A stretch of 64,000 nt of DNA from Candidatus Acidulodesulfobacterium acidiphilum (GTDB lineage Bacteria > SZUA-79 > Acidulodesulfobacterales > Acidulodesulfobacteraceae). This document shows, piece by piece, positions 3,210 to 30,023 of the stretch. The stretch covers positions 11,559 to 75,558 of the forward strand of contig SHMQ01000011.1 in assembly GCA_008534395.1 (NCBI GenBank), read 5' to 3'. The translations under genes and the position numbers were made by a program. Under the pieces are notes generated by a model. It did no database searches. It worked only from the letters and a program-made list of their open reading frames with translations, and had not been told where the DNA came from. Position 1 is the stretch's first letter. The number at the start of each line of letters is the position of its first letter.

Positions 3210-3710
3210 ATGAAAAAAATGTTTATTTTTTTAGAAATGTCGTTATTTGTGGTATTATTATCTGCATGCGCTACAATGGTAGTAAATTCCGACAATTCCA
3301 GATTGCAAAAAAACGGATCGTATTTAGTTGCCGTATTTAAAAATTTTACCGAAACTCCTCATGCAGGATTAAGAGTATCGTCTATGATAGACAGTATTAT
3401 GGCTTCAAAAGGTTATAAGACCTACAATACGTCTGAAATTTTAAAAAGTAACGGTAACAATAAAAATATTGATAAATTAATTAGACGCGCAAAAAGAAAA
3501 GATATAGAATACGTAATTTCCGGAACAGTAAACGAATTTAGATATAAAACCGGTATTGAAGGAGAACCCGCAGTAGGAATATCAATTTTTGTATATAACA
3601 CTTCAGACGGAAAATTAGTTTGGAGCAGTACGGGATCGGCTACAGGTTGGTCTAATCAATCAAGGACGACTATTTTGCAGAATCTGATAAATAGGTTAAT
3701 AGATAAATAA
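3210..3710 (+). CDS. pelC: PelC-like outer-membrane lipoprotein
   Basis: PelC is a small lipoprotein that forms a ring on the inner face of the outer membrane and guides Pel polysaccharide to the PelB pore. This 166-residue protein has a lipoprotein signal with lipobox LLSAC (Cys about residue 19). The conserved PelC C-terminal region is recognisable: a motif of the form YVISGTVNEFRYKTGIEGEP, then AVGISI, then a Trp-containing strand and SATGW. A strong GGAGG site lies 6 bp upstream of the ATG. It follows the PelB-like gene by 46 bp on the same strand. The inner-membrane synthase genes (pelD, E, F, G) and pelA are not visible downstream, where the next gene is convergent, so they should lie left of the window edge or elsewhere. 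Confidence 0.88.
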   Translation: MKKMFIFLEMSLFVVLLSACATMVVNSDNSRLQKNGSYLVAVFKNFTETPHAGLRVSSMIDSIMASKGYKTYNTSEILKSNGNNKNIDKLIRRAKRKDIEYVISGTVNEFRYKTGIEGEPAVGISIFVYNTSDGKLVWSSTGSATGWSNQSRTTILQNLINRLIDK

Positions 3711-3750
3711 TAAAATATTTTGCAGTTTACATAATGTATCTTATGGGACA

Positions 3751-6174
3751 TCATACAATCCAGTTCGCTATTTCAAAGTTTGTATCGGGTATCGTCGTTT
3801 CAAAATAACCGCTGACCGGAAAACGCTCTATTTCGACAAGCGGATTATTTTTATAAGTAAGGACGGCGTAAAAGTCGATTTGATTGCTTGGGGCTACGCC
3901 TAAGGTAAAAGTTTTAATGGATAATTCGAGAATTTTATTATATGCGGCTTTCAAAATATTGCCCGTATTATGTTTAGTCGCGGATTTTCCGTCTTTAATA
4001 TAAGGCGAATTTAATAGTAAATTTAATGAGTTATTTATATTAAATTCAATTTTTACTTCAACATCAGAATTATTTATAAATTTTATTATAAGTACTTTTC
4101 CTAACAATTCTGAATAGTCTTTTTTAAAGAAATCAAATCTCATGAAAAAATATTCACCATTAAATCCGTATTGCATTTTTCTTATAAATCTGTCGGTATG
4201 CGCCATTGCCTTACCGGATAAGATACTTGGGAAAAATACCGCGCTTCCGAGCCATTCAAAATAATTATCTGCTATGCCGTCTATTTTCGGATAAATATAC
4301 GATACTATATCCATATTAGGTTTTACTGCTTTTTTACCTTCTAACAAAGGTATAAAATATTCGTCGGGCGGGGTTTCGTTTAAAAATTTGTACACGTTTA
4401 TAAGATGTGTTCTGTAAAGGAAATCATATTCTTCGTCTATGCCGGACGTTCTGTCTTCCCCGTACCACCAGTTATAATCGCTTCCTTCCGCTATAAATAT
4501 TTGTTTCCATGCCGCTTTAAAATTTGGTCCGGCGCCGTTTTCTATATTAACCGGCGCCGCTGCGTCATTTTTGTCGGCATATGCTTCTTTATCTTTCTGT
4601 AAAAGATAATCTCTTGTTTTAGAAAGAATATCCCAAGCTCTGTTGTCTTCTTTATCCCCTATCCATATTCTGAAATTATGGTTAATCCATGAACCCGGGT
4701 ATATCATAGGTATGTTGTATATTTTAGAATAATCGAAATCGCTATCTTTGTCAGGGTCGGTATTCCATTTAATATCGAAAAACGATTTAACTTTAACTCC
4801 GGTTTTGCCGTTTTCATAGGTACCTGATTCCGGTTCGGCATCGGTTATTTTTAAAGTTTCTTCCGTTTTTTTAATATATTCGCTAACGGTAAGCGTTTTT
4901 ATAATTTTTGAGTTTTTAGTAATATTTTCATAAAGATAATTAAAAAAATCGTATGCGTTATTTTTATAATATTCCCATGCATTTTCGCCGTCCAATATTA
5001 TCGGTACTGCAGATAGTCCATTTTTATCGTAATCTTGAATACTTAATGCTATATTTTTAAGGTTATTTATTAAATCTTCCGCCGCGGCTTTAGGTTCGTA
5101 ATTTGAATATTTAAAACCTATTAAATCCGAAAGCCCTTTATCCCTAAAAAAAATATATAAAAATTTGTCGTTTCTTTTTATTACATATGGCCTGTATAAT
5201 AATTTTCGCAATCTTAAATCCTTTAGATTTGTTCCTATGGAGTTTTCTAAGATTTCTTCATCCGTAGCTATCCAGTTTATATCGTTGTCCATAAAAAGTT
5301 TTAAAGCCTTTTCGCTAACGCTTCCTTCTGACGGCCACATTCCTTTAACTTTATATTTTAATTTGCCGCTGAAATAATCCAATGCGCTTTTAATTTGATA
5401 ATCTGCATCTTCAGGATGTCTGAAAGGCATAGGCAGTTTTATGCCGTCGTGAAAATCGGCTATATCGGTGTCGCACAGCAGAGGCAGTATTGGATGATAG
5501 TAAGGGCTTGCGGAAAGTTCAATTTGTCCGTTTTTTGCAAGTTCGGTTATTAAGGGAAGTATTTTATTTAAAACCTGCGGAATTTTTTCTTTAATTAATC
5601 TGTCTTTTTCTTCTTCAGTAAATTTTTTGTCTTTATTTTTTAAAGCGGTTAAAAACTCGTCTTCAGCTATGGAAACAGGGTCAAACCACATAAGATTAAA
5701 CAGGACAACAATATCTAAATAGTCCTGAGTATCGAACATATCGACTTTTTCCTCAAGTCCTCCGCCGTCTGCCGTTTTTAATCTTGCATAAAGTTGTTTA
5801 AACCTGGCGCTTTTTTCTATGAAATTATTGCTTGAAGAACATGCGGGAAAAAATTTTTCTATAATAAAAAGTTTGTCCTCAAGCGAAAGTTTCGATATTT
5901 TTCCATCGGATATGCTTAAAAATTCTTCGTTTTTAAGAAGTGCGCCGTAATTGCCGGTATAATCTTCAAGCTGACTGAGCAAGGACGGCGAATAGTTAAA
6001 AGTAGCGTGTATTTCGGGATGATTTTTTAAAAGCGCTCCCATGTAATAGTAGTCTTTTGTTGCATGCAGCCTCGTCCACGGCATCAGCATTTCGCCGGTA
6101 AAATTATCTTTGTAATACGGCTGATGAAAATGCCACAAAAATATTACGTTGATAGGATTATTTATCGAATCCAC
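3751..6174 (-). CDS. GH57 family glycoside hydrolase (amylase/glucanotransferase type)
   Basis: GH57 enzymes hydrolyse or transfer alpha-glucans. The 807-residue protein begins with the family hallmark WHFHQPYY (residues 14-21). It has the nucleophile region MWPSEGS (Glu about 283) and the second catalytic region ILDGENAWEYY (about 390-405), where Asp is expected to be the acid/base. A C-terminal beta-rich domain of about 200 residues follows, as in the longer GH57 members. The start is a GTG that overlaps the stop of the upstream chemoreceptor gene by one base, so the two are probably cotranscribed and translationally coupled. No signal peptide is seen, which suggests a cytoplasmic role in glycogen or maltodextrin turnover. 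The exact substrate cannot be told from sequence alone. Confidence 0.88.
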   Translation of the reverse strand: MDSINNPINVIFLWHFHQPYYKDNFTGEMLMPWTRLHATKDYYYMGALLKNHPEIHATFNYSPSLLSQLEDYTGNYGALLKNEEFLSISDGKISKLSLEDKLFIIEKFFPACSSSNNFIEKSARFKQLYARLKTADGGGLEEKVDMFDTQDYLDIVVLFNLMWFDPVSIAEDEFLTALKNKDKKFTEEEKDRLIKEKIPQVLNKILPLITELAKNGQIELSASPYYHPILPLLCDTDIADFHDGIKLPMPFRHPEDADYQIKSALDYFSGKLKYKVKGMWPSEGSVSEKALKLFMDNDINWIATDEEILENSIGTNLKDLRLRKLLYRPYVIKRNDKFLYIFFRDKGLSDLIGFKYSNYEPKAAAEDLINNLKNIALSIQDYDKNGLSAVPIILDGENAWEYYKNNAYDFFNYLYENITKNSKIIKTLTVSEYIKKTEETLKITDAEPESGTYENGKTGVKVKSFFDIKWNTDPDKDSDFDYSKIYNIPMIYPGSWINHNFRIWIGDKEDNRAWDILSKTRDYLLQKDKEAYADKNDAAAPVNIENGAGPNFKAAWKQIFIAEGSDYNWWYGEDRTSGIDEEYDFLYRTHLINVYKFLNETPPDEYFIPLLEGKKAVKPNMDIVSYIYPKIDGIADNYFEWLGSAVFFPSILSGKAMAHTDRFIRKMQYGFNGEYFFMRFDFFKKDYSELLGKVLIIKFINNSDVEVKIEFNINNSLNLLLNSPYIKDGKSATKHNTGNILKAAYNKILELSIKTFTLGVAPSNQIDFYAVLTYKNNPLVEIERFPVSGYFETTIPDTNFEIANWIV

Positions 6175-18591: not shown

Positions 18592-21024
18592 TTATAAATT
18601 TATATTTATAATTTTTAATCCTTCAGGCAGCAAACCATTTATTTTATCTTTTAAATCGGTCAAATTCATAGATGCGGCATGAATTTTTGGAATTCTCCCC
18701 TTAATGTACAGCTCGTCGCTTTCCGACATAAAAGGTATCGGGTTGGAAAAACTTAGTTTCGGTCTCAAAGTATATTCGGATTCTTTATATAACAGCGGAA
18801 TTTTTATTATCCTGAAAGCTTTAAGCAGTATTTTAACGGTTTCCAAATGTCCGAGATATTTTGCTATTCCTCTTTTTGAATATGTAAAAGTTATTTCTGA
18901 AAACGGAACGGTTTTAACTTTAATATCATTATTGCCGTTAAAATTATAGAGTTCTACGCTGTTTATGCCGGTTTTATTAAAAAAGACGTCTTTATTTATA
19001 CTGCTGTCATAATTATCATTTACGCCACTATTTTTATCTTTTTCATTTTCATTATTTTTAATATTATTTTTATGCATTTTTACATTTGCGGCTTTTGATG
19101 AATAAACCGGACTTACGGTTTTAAAATCGCATACTCCGCATAAGCAGCATATTTTTCTGCAGTTTTGGGTAGAAAGGTATTCTCCGTCTATTTCGGAATT
19201 AAAATAATAAATAGATTTAGCATTTTGCATGTAAGATTTTTTATATTCTTCTTTCAAAAATTTTTTATCGACCAGAATATCGATAAAATCCCACGGCAGC
19301 GAGTCGTTTATATTTTTTTCTTCATATAGATATTTAAAATAACCCTGATAAGATTGATAATCGTTTCCATGGCTAAACTTGTTTTCGTTTTGATTCCGGT
19401 TTTCGGTTTCTATCGCTTTTATCCATGCATCAAAGTTGAAAAGCCTCGACTCGCTGTCGTAAACGGCTCCCGATTTGTACGCCTTATAGATAATTTTAGA
19501 CGTAAATTCATCCCCTCTCGATATCAGCGCTTCTACAAAACTCACCCTGGGATCCTGATATTTAAAATTTACGTTCAGCGGTTTTAATATCTTTTTTAAA
19601 TAATTTATTTTAAAGCTAAGCGCTTCTTCTTTTTCCATAGGAAACCACTGAAAAGGAGTATGCGGTTTTGGAACGAAGTTATTGACGTTCACGGTAACGT
19701 TAAGTCCTTTTGCCGCTTTTTTTATTTTTACTATTAAAGAGGCTATTCCGTCCAAGTCGGCGATTCTTTCAAAAGGAAGACCTATCATAAAATAAAGTTT
19801 TAAAGACTTATATCCTTTTTGAGAAAGCCCTGCTGCTTCATTAAGCAGATCAGTTTCGGATATATTTTTATTTATGATATTTCTTAGTCTCTGGGTTCCG
19901 GCTTCCGGAGCCAGCGTAAAATTTGTTTTTTTTACTGCGGCGGTTTTTTTAAGTATATTTTCGCTTAATGAGCCGATTCTCATAGACGGAAACGACATCG
20001 ATATCCTCTCTTCGGTAGTTAATTCCGCTAACTCGGAAAGAAGCGGTTCTATTTCGGAATAATCTCCGGTAGAAAGCGAAGACAGCGATATTTCCTCTAA
20101 ACCGGTCGTATGCAACCCGTGTTTTACGGCATTTACTACGGTATCTTTTTTCCTTTCCCTTACCGGCCTGTAAATATAACCGGCCTGGCAGAACCTGCAT
20201 CCGGAAGAACAGCCCCTCGCTATCTCGACGGCAAGCCTGTTGTGGACGGTTTCTATAAGCGGTACGATATGCTTGTTAATATAAACATACTTGTTGGTTT
20301 TAAAATCAAAGTTATAATTTAAATCTATATCGTTAAGTAATGATTTTTTTACGCTTTTTGAAATTCCAGGCACATAAACGCCCCGTATTTCGGCAAGTTT
20401 TCTTTTAACGTAATTTCTGTAATCCGATATATCGACAACGCCTGATTTTAGGTCGTTTTTTGCTTCCAATACCGCATCGCATACCAGGGCGGTAGCAATT
20501 TCGCCGTCTCCTATTATGAAAAAATCCATAAAGTCATTTAACGGCAGAGGGTTAAAAGCGCAAGGTCCGCCCGCTCCAACGAAAGGAGAGTCCGTTCCGG
20601 TTCGGTCTTTAGAAAATAAGGGAATACCCGAAAGTTCAAGCATTAATAATATATTCGTATAGGATAGTTCATACTGAAGCGAAAAACCTGCTATGTCGAA
20701 ATTTTTAATTTCTTCGAAAGATTCTAAAGAAAATAAAGGAATATTATGCTCTTTAAGTTTTGCGTTCATATCCGGATAAGGCAGGTAAACCCTTTCGCAG
20801 GCAATATAATCGACGGAGTTTAAAATATCGTATATTATTCCCATTCCTATATGGCTCATGCCGAGTTCGTAAAAATCGGGGAAAGCCAAAGCAAATTTTA
20901 AAGGAATATTTTTGATATCTTTTATGGTAGTTCCTGTTTCCAAACCCAGATATCTAACCGGTTTCTGGACGAAAGGCAGAACGTCGCCGTTCAGTTTGCT
21001 ATAAAGTTTATGGTTTTTTTTCAT
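18592..21024 (-). CDS. TIGR03960-family B12-binding-like radical-SAM protein fused to a DUF2344 domain
   Basis: The N-terminal part carries the family signature ALAFPDFYELGMSHIG and a B12-binding-like fold. The radical-SAM cluster follows in EIARGCSSGCRFCQAGYIYR (CxxxCxxC). The C-terminus (FTYSKRGIAKYLGHLE… PKLSFSNPIPFM) is the DUF2344/TIGR03936 domain, which is often fused or adjacent to this family. A Cys-rich patch (CRKICCLCGVC) lies between them. The function is unknown, and in other genomes the family is often found near ribonuclease G. A longer frame with a TTG start at 21072 is possible; I prefer the ATG at 21024 because related proteins begin only a short distance before the KPVRYLG motif. 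Confidence 0.85.
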   Translation of the reverse strand: MKKNHKLYSKLNGDVLPFVQKPVRYLGLETGTTIKDIKNIPLKFALAFPDFYELGMSHIGMGIIYDILNSVDYIACERVYLPYPDMNAKLKEHNIPLFSLESFEEIKNFDIAGFSLQYELSYTNILLMLELSGIPLFSKDRTGTDSPFVGAGGPCAFNPLPLNDFMDFFIIGDGEIATALVCDAVLEAKNDLKSGVVDISDYRNYVKRKLAEIRGVYVPGISKSVKKSLLNDIDLNYNFDFKTNKYVYINKHIVPLIETVHNRLAVEIARGCSSGCRFCQAGYIYRPVRERKKDTVVNAVKHGLHTTGLEEISLSSLSTGDYSEIEPLLSELAELTTEERISMSFPSMRIGSLSENILKKTAAVKKTNFTLAPEAGTQRLRNIINKNISETDLLNEAAGLSQKGYKSLKLYFMIGLPFERIADLDGIASLIVKIKKAAKGLNVTVNVNNFVPKPHTPFQWFPMEKEEALSFKINYLKKILKPLNVNFKYQDPRVSFVEALISRGDEFTSKIIYKAYKSGAVYDSESRLFNFDAWIKAIETENRNQNENKFSHGNDYQSYQGYFKYLYEEKNINDSLPWDFIDILVDKKFLKEEYKKSYMQNAKSIYYFNSEIDGEYLSTQNCRKICCLCGVCDFKTVSPVYSSKAANVKMHKNNIKNNENEKDKNSGVNDNYDSSINKDVFFNKTGINSVELYNFNGNNDIKVKTVPFSEITFTYSKRGIAKYLGHLETVKILLKAFRIIKIPLLYKESEYTLRPKLSFSNPIPFMSESDELYIKGRIPKIHAASMNLTDLKDKINGLLPEGLKIININL

Positions 21025-21171
21025 GCTTATGTGATTATGTAATATATTATCATTATATAATATTACGGACAAAAAATTAACGGAAAAATTAAAATAAAAT
21101 AATAAACATTGCTAATAAACTAATAAAATTATGTTGATTTATAAGGAAAAATAATCGTATAATGGTTTAAT

Positions 21172-23142: not shown

Positions 23143-24042
23143 TTAATCCGAGTCTGCGTTAGAAATAGCCAATTCCGCTGTTTTTTTGTTCAATATGCGG
23201 TATTCGCCGGAAGGCAGGTCGCCTATATATAGTCCGCCTATTCTTACTCTTTTAAGCATTAAAATCTTAAGATTAAAAAACTCCATAAGTCGTCTTATTT
23301 CACGGTTTTTTCCGTGGGTTAAATCGACCGACAGTATAAATTTATTTGGATTTTTTCTGACTATTTTTACGTCGTCAGGTTTTAAAAGACCTGCTTCTTC
23401 AAGTCTGACGCCTTTTTTTATCCTGTTGAAAAGGTCTGAGGTCAGTTCTCCTTTAACTTCTACTATATAGGTTTTTAATACGTCGAATTTTGGATGCGTT
23501 AATTTATACGAAAAATCGCCGTCGTTGGTAAGTATCAGCATGCCCTCACTCATAAAATCGAGTCTGCCCGCAGGAAATATATGCTTGTATTTCAAGGTTT
23601 CTTTTTTCACCAATTCCATGACTGTCTTAAAACCTTCTTCGGATTTTACCGCGGTAATATATCCTTGGGGTTTGTTAAGCATGATATAAATTTTAGGTTC
23701 TTCTTTGAATTTAATTTTTTTACCGTCGACGGAAACTTCGTCGCCGGGTTTAACCGAAACGGCAAGTTTATTTATTTTTTTTCCGTTTATTACGACCCTT
23801 CCCTCTTCTATAATTTCGTCTGCATTTCTCCTTGAAACGCCGGTATGCATAGCTATAAATTTATTTAATCTTATTATTGCGCTTCCTGTGCCGCTTCCCG
23901 TGTCTGACGCAGGCAACGCCGATTTTACAGACTTTACAGATTTTACAGACTTTACAGGCTTTGATTTTTGCGGATTATTATTAGCAGATTTAGGAATCGC
24001 GGAATACTTGGAAGTCTTGTTTATTTTTTTTTCTTTTGTCAA
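23143..24042 (-). CDS. rluB: 23S rRNA pseudouridine synthase, RluB type
   Basis: The protein has an S4 RNA-binding domain ([21 protein letters not shown], about residues 57-77, then VSVDGKKI). The RsuA/RluB catalytic core follows with the Asp-bearing motif [20 protein letters not shown] (catalytic Asp about 163), then [13 protein letters not shown]. Family members isomerise uridine near position 2605 of 23S rRNA; the exact site is inferred. The N-terminal ~55 residues are a low-complexity basic tail with four KSV repeats encoded by tandem DNA repeats at ~23925-23960. The start is TTG, 9 bp after GGAGGG. That site lies inside the end of thiG, and the start overlaps the thiG stop (TTGA), so the two are coupled and rluB belongs to the TPP-riboswitch operon. 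Confidence 0.9.
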
Positions 24043-24824
24043 AATACTATTCCCTCCATTTGGGTTGAAGCCTGAGCATAAAGTTTCATGGGGATTCGTC
24101 CCGATAGGTACGCCTGTCTGCCTGCTTCTACAGCTTTTTTCATAGCGTCTGCCATATTAACGGGATCTGCAGCTCCGGCTATCGCCGTGTTAATGAGAAT
24201 TCCGTCAACGCCGAGCTCCATGGTTTTGCAAGCATCGGATGCCGTTCCTACTCCAGCATCGACTATTACGGGAACAGAGACCGTTTCTTTAATTATTTTT
24301 ATGTTATACGGATTTTTTATGCCTAAACCTGAACCTATAGGAGAAGCAAGCGGCATAACTACAGGACATCCAATGTCTTCAAGTTTTTTTGCAAGGACAG
24401 GATCGTCCATCATATAAGGCATAACCGTAAATCCTTCTTTAACTAAAATTTTTGCCGCCTTTAACAGTTCTTCATTGTCGGGATAAAGGGTTTTTTGATC
24501 GCCTATCACTTCCAATTTTACGAGGTCTGTTCTAAAAACGTCTAATTCTCTCGCAAGCAACAAAGTGTTTACCGCGTCTTCTGCCGTGTAGCATCCTGCG
24601 GTATTCGGTAAAAGAATATACTTATCAAGGTCAATATAAGACAATAAATTTTCTTTGGCGTTAAAGTTGATTCTTCTTACGGCGACGGTTATTATTTCTG
24701 CTCCGGAAATATCCGCCGCCTCTTTCATTGTTTGAAAGTCGGGATATTTTCCTGTTCCGATAAGCAGTCTCGAGTCAAATTCGTATTTTCCTATTTTTAA
24801 AATATCGTCTTTTTTTTTCATCAT
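24039..24824 (-). CDS. thiG: Thiazole synthase ThiG
   Basis: ThiG builds the thiazole phosphate ring of thiamine from deoxyxylulose phosphate, ThiS-thiocarboxylate and dehydroglycine. The 261-residue protein has [14 protein letters not shown] and the AAVRR-like VAVRRIN. It also has [34 protein letters not shown] and [20 protein letters not shown], all standard for the family. A strong GAGGAGG site precedes the ATG. ThiS lies upstream and rluB overlaps its 3' end. A short half-repeat sits between thiS and thiG. Confidence 0.97.
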
Positions 24825-24856
24825 TTTATATAACCTCCTCTTTTATTTAAATTAAA

Positions 24857-24896
24857 ATAAATAAATCTGACACCTTTTTTTGACACCTTTTTTTCC
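24857..24896. repeat. Half-copy of the dispersed repeat inside the thi operon
   Basis: AATAAATAAATCTGACACC followed by a T run and a second TGACACCTTTTTTT lies in the 77-bp gap between thiS and thiG. It is one arm plus a partial duplicate of the palindromic family; no inverted partner is present. Confidence 0.7.
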
Positions 24897-24901
24897 TTTT
24901 T

Positions 24902-25105
24902 TTATCCTCCTGGAGCTATAGTTACCATGTCTATTTTATCGTTCTCTTTTAACGTGAATTCTGCGTAACAATTTTTGGAAATTATGGTTTTATTTACTGC
25001 AACGGCAGTGCTTTTTATATTAAGTTTGAGTTCGTCGATTAGTTTTTGAATCGTAATACCGTTTTGTTCGACTATATATTCGTTTCCGTTTAATTCTATT
25101 TTCAT
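24902..25105 (-). CDS. thiS: Sulfur carrier protein ThiS
   Basis: This 67-residue ubiquitin-fold protein carries sulfur as a C-terminal thiocarboxylate for thiazole formation. It begins MKIELNGNEYIV and has the family AVAVNKTII strand. It ends in the required di-glycine (VTIAPGG). The start overlaps the stop of the upstream CofH-like gene (ATGA). The adenylyltransferase ThiF needed to activate it is not in this operon. Confidence 0.95.
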   Translation of the reverse strand: MKIELNGNEYIVEQNGITIQKLIDELKLNIKSTAVAVNKTIISKNCYAEFTLKENDKIDMVTIAPGG

Positions 25106-26265
25106 AAAATTTTATTATTATTTTTTTCGTATATATAATTATATACGGTATCCCTTCTGACCGGAGTTTTGCCGGCATGTTTTATTAAATTTATTATTTC
25201 TTTTTCCTCTAAAAATTCACCGAATTTACCTCCGGCGCTTTTAGTTATGTTTTCTTCCATTAAAGTCCCGCCGAAATCGTTAATGCCGCAATCAAGAGAT
25301 TTTAAAGCCGCGGACACGCCTATTTTAGGCCAGCTTGTCTGAATATTTTTAAAATTGTCCAAGAAAAGCCTTAAAATTGCATAAAATTTAAACACTCTTT
25401 TTTCGCCGATTATTTTCTTTCCGTTTATCGACTTTCCTAAAGACGTTTTGGGAGAAATAAACGGCAGAGCTATAAATTCCGTAAATCCGCCGGTTTCATC
25501 CTGCAAACGTCTTATAATACTTAAATGATAAGCCAAATCTCCGCTTGATTCTATATGTCCGAAAAGCACCGTAGCAGACGTTTTAACGCCGAGTAAATGC
25601 GCCGTTTTTATTATTTTCATCCACTCTGCCGTATTTATCTTTTGCGGGCATATCTTTTTTCTTGTTTCTTCGGCTAAAATTTCAGCGGCAGTTCCGGGCA
25701 TGGAATTAACGCCGCAATCAACTAATTTTTCGATAACCCGCGCATACGTCATACCCGTTGTTTCGGAAAGTTCGTAAATTTCCTGAGGCGAAAAAGCATG
25801 TATATGAAGTTTCGGAAAATTATTTCTTACCGTTTTAATTAAATCAAAATAATAATCCGGATTTAATTTCAATTCCGGATTTATTCCGCCTGTTACGCAT
25901 ATTTCGTTAATACTGATGCTTTTTACGCCCTCCGAAATTTTCTCGATTATCTTATCGTAATCTAATAAAAAAGCGTCTTTAGAATTTTTTGTTCTTTTGT
26001 ATCCGCAAAATTTGCAATTTAAACCGCAAATATTAGTAAAATTAATATTTCTGTTAACGACGTAAGAAACTTTATCGGAATTAATTTTTTTATTTAGCGT
26101 ATCTGCCGTAAAAATAATTTCCTCAATAGCTTTCTCTTCCTGCTCTTCAAGCAGTATAAGCAAATCATCGCTATCAAGTCTTTTGCCGGATAAAGCTTTT
26201 TGCAAAATATAATCCGGTTCGATTTTATGTGTTTTACTATTTTTATTATTCGACAAATTAAGCAT
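25102..26265 (-). CDS. CofH-like radical-SAM enzyme in the thiazole operon
   Basis: The 387-residue protein has the radical-SAM cluster NICGLNCKFCGYKR (CxxxCxxC) after NRNINFTN. It also has CofH-type signatures: EICVTGGINPEL, LHIHAFSPQEIYE, NSMPGTAAEIL, GGFTEFIALPF, DFGGTLMEENITKSAGG. CofH (FO synthase subunit 2) cleaves tyrosine and joins the hydroxybenzyl fragment to a pyrimidine in F420 synthesis. Here the gene follows a TPP riboswitch, overlaps thiS (ATGA) and heads the thiS-thiG set, the place normally taken by ThiH. ThiH also cleaves tyrosine to dehydroglycine, so this enzyme may supply ThiG. That role is inference; the alternatives are a true CofH or MqnE-like enzyme. Confidence 0.85.
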   Translation of the reverse strand: MLNLSNNKNSKTHKIEPDYILQKALSGKRLDSDDLLILLEEQEEKAIEEIIFTADTLNKKINSDKVSYVVNRNINFTNICGLNCKFCGYKRTKNSKDAFLLDYDKIIEKISEGVKSISINEICVTGGINPELKLNPDYYFDLIKTVRNNFPKLHIHAFSPQEIYELSETTGMTYARVIEKLVDCGVNSMPGTAAEILAEETRKKICPQKINTAEWMKIIKTAHLLGVKTSATVLFGHIESSGDLAYHLSIIRRLQDETGGFTEFIALPFISPKTSLGKSINGKKIIGEKRVFKFYAILRLFLDNFKNIQTSWPKIGVSAALKSLDCGINDFGGTLMEENITKSAGGKFGEFLEEKEIINLIKHAGKTPVRRDTVYNYIYEKNNNKIL

Positions 26266-26369
26266 TGTAATATATCTTCAATTTATTGCTTAAAGCTTAA
26301 TGTATTATGCCTGAAGATAAAGCTTTTGGAAAGAAAAACTGCAGAAAAGAAAAAGTAAGCAGAAAGTCT

Positions 26370-26468
26370 ATCTTCCCTACGACGGCATTATCCGTATCAG
26401 GTTCAAAGGGTTGCGTGCTTTAACGGCTACGCTCTCAGCCATAGTTACAATAATACGGCACCCCTGAT
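26370..26468 (-). promoter_or_regulatory. TPP (THI-box) riboswitch
   Basis: Read on the minus strand, the conserved THI elements are in order: TCAGGGGTGCC at the 5' end, GGCTGAGAGCG, then ACCCTTTGAACCTGATACGG and ATAATGCCG with CGTAGGGAA at the 3' end. It lies about 105 bp upstream of the CofH-like gene that heads the thiS-thiG-rluB operon, so thiamine pyrophosphate should repress the set. The expression platform (terminator or start-site masking) was not resolved. Confidence 0.95.
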
Positions 26469-26527
26469 TTCATTGCATACCGACCTAAAACATATAAACT
26501 ATCGATATATTATAAATTATACCATTA

Positions 26528-27298
26528 TTACTTTATAATTCCAACCAAAAAACTTTTGCTTTTATTGTTGTAAACCTTAACGCAAAAAACTTTTACCGTT
26601 AAAACGTCGTGTTTTGCCGTTAAAGGAATAAAATTATAGGATAGAAAAACGGATTTTTTAATATGACCGAATGTTCCGGTTCTTTTATTGATAAACTTTT
26701 CCGCTCTTTTTGCCGGAATACTTAAAAAATTAAACTTTCCCGCATTTTTAAAAACTATCGTTAAACGCTTTGAAAAATGATATATATTTCCGTGTTCTAT
26801 CTTTACGAAATCGATATTTCTGTCCGTTCTCATGCCATTCATTATAACTTTCTTTTTATTGCGGTACGTTAAATAGAAACCGCCTTTATTCATTATATAG
26901 CCGCTAAGCGACGCTTTTACGTAATTTTTAAAATATTTTACTGAATCGACGTAGCTCATAAGTTTATTCAGCCTTGTCTTATCTTCAGAATATAGCTTAT
27001 TCCATAAAAACACGTTATTCCTGTCATGCTTATATTTTGCCGGATTAACTATTTTTATATAGGTAACCACGTCGTTTTTACTTATAGCCTGTCCTTTCGC
27101 CTTTAAATAAAGCGCATAAATTATAGGATTTGTAGCATATACTCCATTACAGTCCGTATTGCCGTTTCCGTCGGCAAACGACTTTCTGACCGACGCCGGA
27201 TTAAAATTAAGAAATAAAATTGCCGATAACACTAAAATAAATAAAAATGAGGTCTTAAAAATAAATATACCGTTTTTAATAATTTTATCTGCAATCAT
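26528..27298 (-). CDS. Secreted protein of unknown function
   Basis: No family is recognised. The 256-residue protein has an N-terminal signal/anchor segment (FKTSFLFILVLSAILFLNF) and a mature part rich in Lys, Tyr and Asn. Two cysteines lie in the C-terminal half or near the mature start (TDCNG, VFCVKV). The tail looks like beta strands (VVKVFCVKVYNNKS-like). An AGGAG site 9 bp upstream supports the ATG. It sits alone between the TPP riboswitch and the restriction-modification genes. Confidence 0.6.
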   Translation of the reverse strand: MIADKIIKNGIFIFKTSFLFILVLSAILFLNFNPASVRKSFADGNGNTDCNGVYATNPIIYALYLKAKGQAISKNDVVTYIKIVNPAKYKHDRNNVFLWNKLYSEDKTRLNKLMSYVDSVKYFKNYVKASLSGYIMNKGGFYLTYRNKKKVIMNGMRTDRNIDFVKIEHGNIYHFSKRLTIVFKNAGKFNFLSIPAKRAEKFINKRTGTFGHIKKSVFLSYNFIPLTAKHDVLTVKVFCVKVYNNKSKSFLVGIIK

Positions 27299-27434: not shown

Positions 27435-28217
27435 TTATTTAAATCTCGCAAAATATTCGTCTATCTCAGGCCTTAATTCGATTCCGGCAATTTCAAAACA
27501 ATTAAGCAGTTCTTCGTAAGTACCGTCGCCGCCAAGAAAATCCCAAAATTCTTTCCCTACCTTTAGTTCGCAATCTAAATCCAACATACCCTTTAGCGTC
27601 CATCTTTCGTAAGGTTTGGGTTCGTATGGATTATATGGTATTGCTATATACGAGTTTATATCGGCGTCTGGATTTTCAGCAAGATAAATTGCTGCCCATT
27701 CAAGCAAAGTATGTTTAAAATCTTTAAAACTGCTTATGTTCGGTTTGACTGTTTTTAAATCGAATAAATGTATTTTACCTTCTTTATCATTAATAAATAA
27801 ATCTACTTTAACCGTCTTTAATTTATTCATTTTCCCGTCTTTGCAAACCGCTCTTATTCTTTCTATTTCTCGTGCTTTATTCGGAACGCTTTCTATTTCC
27901 GAAGCAAGACCGTTGATTATAGATTGAATTTCATTTTGGGCTTTTTCGCTTATAAAGTCTCCAACCGTATATTGTTTTTCGGCAAATCTAAAATTTGGAT
28001 TAAGATTAGCAAGGGTTTTGGCGACCGGTTCATAAATAGATATTCCGAAAGTCGTATTTAAAGAATGAATAAAAGAAAATAATGCCATTCTGTCTTTGCC
28101 AAGCAATAAATAATGAAACGGCATTTGTTTAGTTTCCGGCTTATACGTTTTAAACTTCTTTTTTAAACTTTCTTTTATAATATTTTTTATTAAAGCGATT
28201 CTATCATTAGATTCCAA
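27435..28217 (-). CDS. TdeIII-like type II restriction endonuclease
   Basis: The 260-residue protein resembles the TdeIII family: MPFHYLLLGKDRMALFSFI and SLNTTFGISIYEP are characteristic. A PD-(D/E)xK-type nuclease core is suggested by KVDLFINDKEG followed by IHLFDLKTVKPN (Asp…Asp-x-Lys). The start is TTG behind GGGAGG. It lies 48 bp after the methyltransferase gene on the same strand, which gives a compact methylase-then-endonuclease operon. The recognition site cannot be read from the sequence. Confidence 0.8.
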   Translation of the reverse strand: MESNDRIALIKNIIKESLKKKFKTYKPETKQMPFHYLLLGKDRMALFSFIHSLNTTFGISIYEPVAKTLANLNPNFRFAEKQYTVGDFISEKAQNEIQSIINGLASEIESVPNKAREIERIRAVCKDGKMNKLKTVKVDLFINDKEGKIHLFDLKTVKPNISSFKDFKHTLLEWAAIYLAENPDADINSYIAIPYNPYEPKPYERWTLKGMLDLDCELKVGKEFWDFLGGDGTYEELLNCFEIAGIELRPEIDEYFARFK

Positions 28218-28265
28218 TCTATTTAAAGTCCTCCCGAGGTTTAAAGCTTTGCTTATTTAAAATCC

Positions 28266-30023
28266 TTACTTATTTTGCTTTATATGAAATATCGTTTCTG
28301 AATAAATATTACTCCTATCTTTTTCTACCCTGTTGAGTACCGGACGGTTAAACCTATTGACTATTTTCATTCCGGATAACTTTACTATTTCAGGGTATAT
28401 GTTATATTTATCGTTTGCCACTAAGAAAATATCGTAGTCTTCCTGCAAGTATTTTGCCGAATTAATTAAAACATCGGAAATATCTTTAATATAAGCTTCT
28501 CTGGCTTTTTTACCAGAACCTTTAGAAAGCGAGCCTATTTCCATTTCGTCTTTTTTTTGAAAGCCGAACAGTTCGTAAGCGTAAGCATGTTGTTCATGAT
28601 AATCTATCAATCCTACGTAAGGCGGACTTGAAAAGATTCCTCTTATTTTTTGATTTTTTAATATTTCATAAAAAAGAACATTTTTTTTATTTACTTCGGC
28701 ATATATATCCAAATTTCTACTGTCACCGCACAAACATAATTGAAAAGTATTCGTTTTTAATTTTTGAAACTCTTCAAGCCTTTGTATCGTATCTTCGGAA
28801 TAAGTTTTCCACCAGTCTTTTATAGTCAATAAAGGTTTGCATATTTTACCGTGTTTTTTGCAGTAATAAGGACTTACTATCGGCTCCTTTAACGTTGCTA
28901 AGTCGGCATGCGTCGTAGCCCTGCAAGAGCGCATAGTTCTGCTTAATATGGCCGCTAATACTTTTTTTACGTCCGAGTTTTCTATCTTTTGAATCTCGCC
29001 GAAAATAAAATCTATTTCTTCTTTTACCGGCCGCAAAAACCATTTTCCGTTAAAACTGCTATAGTCGTACTTGTTAATTATCTCGACTTTATACTCTTTT
29101 ACCAATCTTTCGTATTCTACTAAAAACTCTTTCTCTTTTTGCCCGCCGTATTCCTTTTCGTTTATACCTCCCTCTCTTACTTTTATTTTATATTCCGGTG
29201 AAGGGAAATATTTATTATTAAATTTTGATAAAGAACGATTTAAATTTTCGATAAAAAAATCGTTATTTTTCTTCTTTCGAAAATCCGTAAATTTATATGT
29301 TATATCTGAAATATATTTTCTGATTTCAGACAAAGGATGCGTTCCTATCTTTATATTACTTATTAAAGCATTAAAGGGCGAAATCTCGATTCCAACGGCA
29401 TGCAGATTTAATTCGTTAGATTGAACCAAAGTAGTTCCGCTTCCGCAAAACGGGTCAAGAACTATATCTCCTTTTTTAAAATACGCTTCTTTTTTAAATT
29501 CGTCGATATGGATATCAAGAAAATATTCAACTAATTGAGGTATAAACTTTCCTTTATAAGGATGTATCCTATGAACATGCTTAGTTCTTTCGGATTCTGT
29601 ATAACGAGAAAAAGACAATAGCGGATTCGCAAAGTCATTCAAACGCTGACCGTCGGAATTGCCTAATCTATTTTTATTATCGATGTTCTTAACAATATTC
29701 TCGTTGATTTCTGATCTGTTAATAATATATTCATCTTTAGTTATATTTTGTAAATTTAAAGGATTTTTGGTTGTAAGTTTATATTCAAAATTATTTAAAG
29801 AATCATAATATTTTATTAATTCTAAAACATCTACCAATATATTTCTTTTATCGCCATATTTTTTAATTCTGCCGTATTGCAATAGATATGAAATATTAGA
29901 AACGGAAACCGGCTTATTTAAATATGCAGAAGCAAAATTGCTTGTCTCAGACAAATTTAGAAACCTTTTTTCCGGCGCGGTAATATTATTTTCATTTAAT
30001 AAGGTATTAACATTATCGGTCAT
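28266..30023 (-). CDS. DNA methyltransferase (SPPY type) of a type II restriction-modification system
   Basis: The 585-residue protein has the SAM-binding motif I DPFCGSGTTLV (about residue 192) and the catalytic motif IV SSPPYVG (about 466). Motif I comes first, with a long target-recognition-like region between them. SPPY suggests N4-cytosine methylation, although N6-adenine enzymes can share it. The first ~80 residues look like a helix-turn-helix module (VSVSNISYLLQYGRIKKYG). It precedes the TdeIII-like nuclease and should protect the host site. Confidence 0.85.
   Translation of the reverse strand: MTDNVNTLLNENNITAPEKRFLNLSETSNFASAYLNKPVSVSNISYLLQYGRIKKYGDKRNILVDVLELIKYYDSLNNFEYKLTTKNPLNLQNITKDEYIINRSEINENIVKNIDNKNRLGNSDGQRLNDFANPLLSFSRYTESERTKHVHRIHPYKGKFIPQLVEYFLDIHIDEFKKEAYFKKGDIVLDPFCGSGTTLVQSNELNLHAVGIEISPFNALISNIKIGTHPLSEIRKYISDITYKFTDFRKKKNNDFFIENLNRSLSKFNNKYFPSPEYKIKVREGGINEKEYGGQKEKEFLVEYERLVKEYKVEIINKYDYSSFNGKWFLRPVKEEIDFIFGEIQKIENSDVKKVLAAILSRTMRSCRATTHADLATLKEPIVSPYYCKKHGKICKPLLTIKDWWKTYSEDTIQRLEEFQKLKTNTFQLCLCGDSRNLDIYAEVNKKNVLFYEILKNQKIRGIFSSPPYVGLIDYHEQHAYAYELFGFQKKDEMEIGSLSKGSGKKAREAYIKDISDVLINSAKYLQEDYDIFLVANDKYNIYPEIVKLSGMKIVNRFNRPVLNRVEKDRSNIYSETIFHIKQNK

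Follow-up and report, generated by a model that had tools for sequence, protein, structure and literature searches.

The window, a stretch of 64,000 nucleotides from Candidatus Acidulodesulfobacterium acidiphilum, carries on its reverse strand a thiazole operon in which a gene of the CofH family, called thi-CofH below, occupies the ThiH slot. In operon order, its features are:

26356-26475, reverse strand: TPP riboswitch aptamer, the operon leader (RF00059 by cmscan, full model 1-105, 69.4 bits against a gathering cut-off of 54.3)
25102-26265, reverse strand: thi-CofH, a CofH-family radical-SAM gene of 387 aa (NCBIfam CofH, over the cut-off)
24902-25105, reverse strand: thiS, sulfur carrier of 67 aa with a C-terminal GG (TIGR01683, 55.9 bits, cut-off 37.45)
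24039-24824, reverse strand: thiG, thiazole synthase of 261 aa (PF05690, 369 bits)
23143-24042, reverse strand: RsuA/RluF-type pseudouridine synthase gene (TIGR00093, 143.9 bits, cut-off 109.3)

Covariance-model and profile matches confirmed the order that had been proposed from the sequence alone, namely TPP riboswitch, CofH-like gene, thiS and thiG, with the thiS start overlapping the thi-CofH stop by 4 bases (ATGA). The span given in that reading, 24039-26468, holds for the operon content but not for its end, since the riboswitch runs 7 bases further. The C-terminal GG of ThiS aligns with that of E. coli ThiS, and ThiG shares KLE and other motifs with E. coli ThiG. A 4-base overlap joins the pseudouridine synthase gene to the thiG stop; the gene also adjoins thiG in genera g1, g3, g4 and g6 and in genome G028, is absent at the g2 operon, and is probably a co-transcribed passenger. 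The aptamer, assigned by homology, is the sole TPP riboswitch found in a search of the whole genome. No intrinsic-terminator-like site was found on the operon strand between the aptamer and the start codon, and the folding energy of the leader is not unusual.

Directly upstream of the riboswitch, in the window (26528-27298, reverse strand) and in most of g1, g3 and g6, lies a gene for a DUF4852-like protein, here of 256 aa and with a likely signal sequence. It is preceded in the window by a type II restriction-modification pair (27435-30023, reverse strand) made of a TdeIII-type restriction endonuclease gene (PF09520, 289 bits) and an adjoining DNA methylase gene. On the other side of the operon, a single 826-aa ORF (18592-21072, reverse strand) carries Radical_SAM_N2, Radical_SAM and DUF2344 domains.

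The thi-CofH protein belongs to the radical-SAM enzymes by its match to PF04055 (59.1 bits), its barrel and its CxxxCxxC cluster motif (C80, C84 and C87, invariant). It passes both NCBIfam cut-offs for CofH (5-amino-6-(D-ribitylamino)uracil-L-tyrosine 4-hydroxyphenyl transferase), with 434.3 bits for NF005609 (cut-off 426) and 399.1 bits for TIGR03551 (cut-off 374.1), and is up to 46% identical to archaeal and bacterial CofH. With ThiH (2-iminoacetate synthase) it shares a radical-SAM barrel, the two belonging to one broader group, but it is not an orthologue: its 42.4 bits against TIGR02351 are far below the equivalog cut-off of 380. MqnE and MqnC of the futalosine pathway are members of the same subfamily (TIGR00423), whereas thi-CofH scores below both of their cut-offs (324.1 bits against 434.55 for MqnE, 357.7 against 428.1 for MqnC).

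The sequence-only reading had proposed a phylogeny against CofH and MqnE. In our maximum-likelihood tree, a 99/98 split sets CofH apart from MqnC/MqnE, and the thi-linked proteins fall on the CofH side as one clade (support 100/100, stem length 0.95). When a CofG outgroup and extra Mqn rows were included, the thi clade (100/100) and the Mqn group (100/98) persisted and the base collapsed, so that a position inside CofH and one as sister to CofH are not separated.

At the residue level, 67 of the 77 nearly invariant CofH columns are kept in thi-CofH, among them the residues that discriminate CofH from MqnE and MqnC. Five residues, C123, T192, T262, E263 and K314, occur without exception in CofH and the thi clade and in none of the MqnE/MqnC rows examined, including those of Sulfurovum and Streptomyces; Pedobacter MqnE also differs at these positions by alignment. 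Tyrosine is not a substrate of MqnE or MqnC, and because these enzymes differ there, we regard the five residues as candidates for tyrosine handling. Conversely, positions fixed in CofH are altered across the entire thi clade (R58N, F89Y, A113G, A119I, T120D/N, Q125T and V313P), perhaps because the second substrate is no longer used. Two further interpretations were dropped: T125 as a ThiH-like ‘TG’ convergence, as a T also occurs in Pedobacter MqnE (6xi9), and H237 as a CofH marker, as it is present in Sulfurovum and Streptomyces MqnE.

An AlphaFold2 model of thi-CofH (pLDDT 90.8) has as its closest solved fold MqnE (6xig/6xi9; Z 43.6, rmsd 2.5, 345 residues), a ranking obtained with no CofH structure for comparison, none being known to one review (PMC8498797). 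The next folds are PylB/HydE (Z ~31) and HydG (Z 29.9), and tyrosine-bound ThiH (7pd1) follows with Z 29.7, rmsd 3.2 over 334 residues and 15% identity in the structural alignment.

We then consider which pathways the enzyme could serve in its own genome. The assembly searched comprises 2,093,156 bases in 70 contigs and is 100% complete and 0.03% contaminated; tblastn (E 1e-4) covered all of it, the summed pieces minus overlaps equalling the genome length within a few bases. No ThiH was found by profile search, where the top match was thi-CofH itself (38.5 bits of the required 380), nor by tblastn of the whole genome. Profile search likewise gave no ThiO (top match 26.7 of 250.8 bits, short FAD-fold stretches only) and no CofG. 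A hidden ThiH or ThiO elsewhere in the genome is thereby ruled out, and the earlier statement that both are missing, made for the operon, is true genome-wide. CofC, CofD, CofE and NpdG have no homologue by tblastn (E 1e-4), and a CofGH query matched only thi-CofH, MqnC, MqnE and BioB, proper MqnC and MqnE being encoded as separate genes. Hence thi-CofH has no F420 or FO pathway to serve. The findings that the sequence-only reading had named as speaking against it, a ThiH or ThiO elsewhere together with CofG and a full F420 pathway, were all missing from this genome.

The other thiamin genes are present: ThiC and ThiD (both on C17), a ThiE/TenI-like gene beside ThiC, ThiM and Dxs, with an additional weak ThiE match on C30. 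The source of dehydroglycine is the single visible gap in the pathway. One ThiF/MoeB-type E1 is encoded, and it probably charges ThiS as well; its gene belongs to a group (C10 243-2786, L175) that also encodes a cysteine-synthase-like protein, a TusA-like protein and a ThiS/MoaD-like carrier with a fused NIL domain. Beside the thiS-thiG-cof operon of genus g2 there is likewise an E1 gene, close to a SAM riboswitch. Near a CobT-type (DBI_PRT) gene lies a second ThiC paralogue (C19 7444-8757, with 3366-4487; L177), whose 523 bits exceed the thiC cut-off. It is found in most genomes of the phylum and, rather than serving as a thiamin ThiC, probably acts in cobamide lower-ligand synthesis, like BzaF.

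The distribution of the gene was followed in 30 genomes of the order, the same 30 standing for the phylum. It occurs in 27 of them, with 63-90% identity, and most genomes carry two more CofH-family genes of ~40% identity, which in the window's own genome are the proper MqnC and MqnE. ThiH over its cut-off was found in 0/30 genomes, and so was CofG over the TIGR03550 cut-off. The genomes bearing thiG are exactly the 27 with thi-CofH; the three that have neither are 85-86% complete. This co-absence says little, because genes that are linked disappear or escape detection as a unit, and co-occurrence as an independent argument is weakened in the same way, as it partly follows from physical linkage and only G028 separates the two genes. 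Two genomes have an additional thiG copy close to a contig start (G018:C34:316-1050 and G019:C11:330-1064), possibly through strain mixture or contamination.

The linkage itself is more telling. In 26 of the 27 genomes thi-CofH adjoins thiG, and the adjacency comes in two different gene orders, cof-thiS-thiG in genera g1, g3, g4 and g6 and thiS-thiG-cof in genus g2; it is therefore more than chance, and the best indication of a shared function is that it survived a rearrangement of the genes. The exception is G028 (g5), where thi-CofH lies ~37 kb from thiS-thiG on the same contig. TPP aptamers lead the operon in the window and at 13 other related loci, and one precedes thiS-thiG-cof in both g2 genomes whose upstream region was examined. 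In G028 an aptamer precedes thiS-thiG, and none was found in the upstream region of thi-CofH. No aptamer over the cut-off was found at the genus g3 and G014 loci, and in genus g4 the contig begins too close to the operon to hold one upstream.

Outside the phylum, a GTDB r220 scan gave at least 590 relatives, of which we inspected the best 80. Five MAG records of the same group are 64-80% identical to thi-CofH, below which, among these 80, identity drops to 46% (archaeal CofH). At the other 75 loci no thiS or thiG lies within the flanks examined, and at many of them CofG adjoins CofH.

The arrangement can be read in the light of three known systems. The CofH reaction releases, as its other product, a two-carbon fragment derived from glycine, and the partner enzyme CofG turns the CofH product into FO. 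ThiH is commonly, though not universally, linked to thiS/thiG under TPP regulation. To our knowledge, two bacterial routes to the dehydroglycine of ThiG are generally known, ThiH and ThiO. CofH takes a hydrogen from the amine of tyrosine, which then breaks to give a p-hydroxybenzyl radical (PMC8498797), and ThiH, by the same cleavage, converts tyrosine into dehydroglycine and p-cresol (PMC9046217). Thi-CofH has the operon place and TPP control of ThiH, and presumably its product. ThiO (glycine oxidase), although it fills the same gap as that proposed for thi-CofH, is an unrelated FAD enzyme that needs oxygen and is absent from the window's genome. Compared with CofH, thi-CofH sits in a TPP-regulated thiS-thiG operon, in a genome lacking CofG, CofC, CofD and CofE, and in a long-stem clade of its own with N58, Y89, G113, I119, D/N120, T125 and P313 fixed.

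We therefore weighed what such an enzyme could do. It is quite probable, as judged from sequence and genome context, that thi-CofH is a CofH-derived radical-SAM tyrosine lyase standing in ThiH's place and supplying dehydroglycine to ThiG. It would be made at low TPP through the riboswitch, cleave SAM at its CxxxCxxC [4Fe-4S] cluster, and then split tyrosine; the 4-hydroxybenzyl half might meet the fate it has in ThiH, release as p-cresol, or the one it has in CofH, addition to an acceptor, and the dehydroglycine would be handed over to ThiG. In the simplest reading, CofH would have been retained here for the fragment that it normally discards. Some points count against a tyrosine lyase. CofH normally requires a second substrate, and the thi-CofH sequence gives no sign of how the 4-hydroxybenzyl radical would be quenched; the separation in G028 with no riboswitch ahead of the gene, and the g3 and G014 loci with no aptamer over the cut-off, also stand on that side.

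In one rival reading the full CofH reaction is kept: the 4-hydroxybenzyl radical would still be joined to 5-amino-6-(D-ribitylamino)uracil, dehydroglycine being the wanted product and the adduct a by-product or the feed for another compound. The 67 of 77 conserved columns and the scores above both CofH cut-offs are in its favour. But no CofG or other F420 gene is present to use the adduct, the CofH-fixed positions 58, 113, 119, 120, 125 and 313 have changed clade-wide, and the reaction would waste a riboflavin precursor; we hold it to be unlikely. TPP control and linkage indicate a role in thiamin synthesis and not which step, so that the enzyme might instead act by radical chemistry on the pyrimidine or another precursor, with dehydroglycine coming from another source, for example glyoxylate and ammonia. 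As ThiC, ThiD and a ThiE-like protein are present and the dehydroglycine step is the one visible gap, this seems very improbable.

The two remaining possibilities would place the enzyme outside thiamin synthesis altogether. An ordinary CofH making the deazaflavin FO, found in a thi operon by accident, would agree with the profile family assignment; it is opposed by the lack, in 30/30 genomes, of the CofG needed for FO, and by a TPP-led linkage to thiG conserved through a change in gene order. With CofG and the F420 genes absent, we rejected the deazaflavin/F420 role and give it very little chance indeed. A third enzyme of menaquinone synthesis by the futalosine pathway, MqnE- or MqnC-like, has behind it the closest fold, that of MqnE, a match for which no CofH structure could compete. 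It was rejected in turn, with a probability close to nil: proper MqnE and MqnC are encoded in the same genome, thi-CofH scores under both cut-offs, the tree places it on the CofH side (99/98), and MqnE and MqnC lack C123, T192, T262, E263 and K314.

The sequence-only reading had offered two possibilities, and they fared differently. For recruitment of a CofH-family enzyme to feed ThiG, the genomics gives strong support: the phylum-wide and mostly TPP-led linkage, the absence of ThiH, ThiO and CofG, the presence of proper MqnE and MqnC, and the retained CofH residues. A single enzyme serving both deazaflavin and thiazole synthesis is contradicted, as CofG occurs in 0/30 genomes and the window's own genome lacks CofC, CofD, CofE and NpdG. 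We found no earlier report that connects CofH to ThiH or to TPP control in the open-access literature, which omits most subscription papers.

The phylum as a whole appears likely to obtain its dehydroglycine from a supplier of a third kind, distinct from both ThiH and ThiO: a CofH with no deazaflavin partner left, predicted to act as a tyrosine lyase for ThiG. The lineage is probably Candidatus Acidulodesulfobacterota (Sva0485) of acid mine drainage, whose described members are proposed to be sulfate or iron reducers (PMC6776010). In that case an enzyme that needs oxygen, as ThiO does, would fit poorly in such cells. A third route would fill a pathway gap across an uncultured lineage, and would correct both the ‘CofH’ label and the false predictions of F420 synthesis that it brings to these genomes. 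It would also connect two cofactor pathways in their chemistry, what CofH discards being what ThiG needs; if true, the two-carbon fragment that CofH normally throws away can be a useful product.
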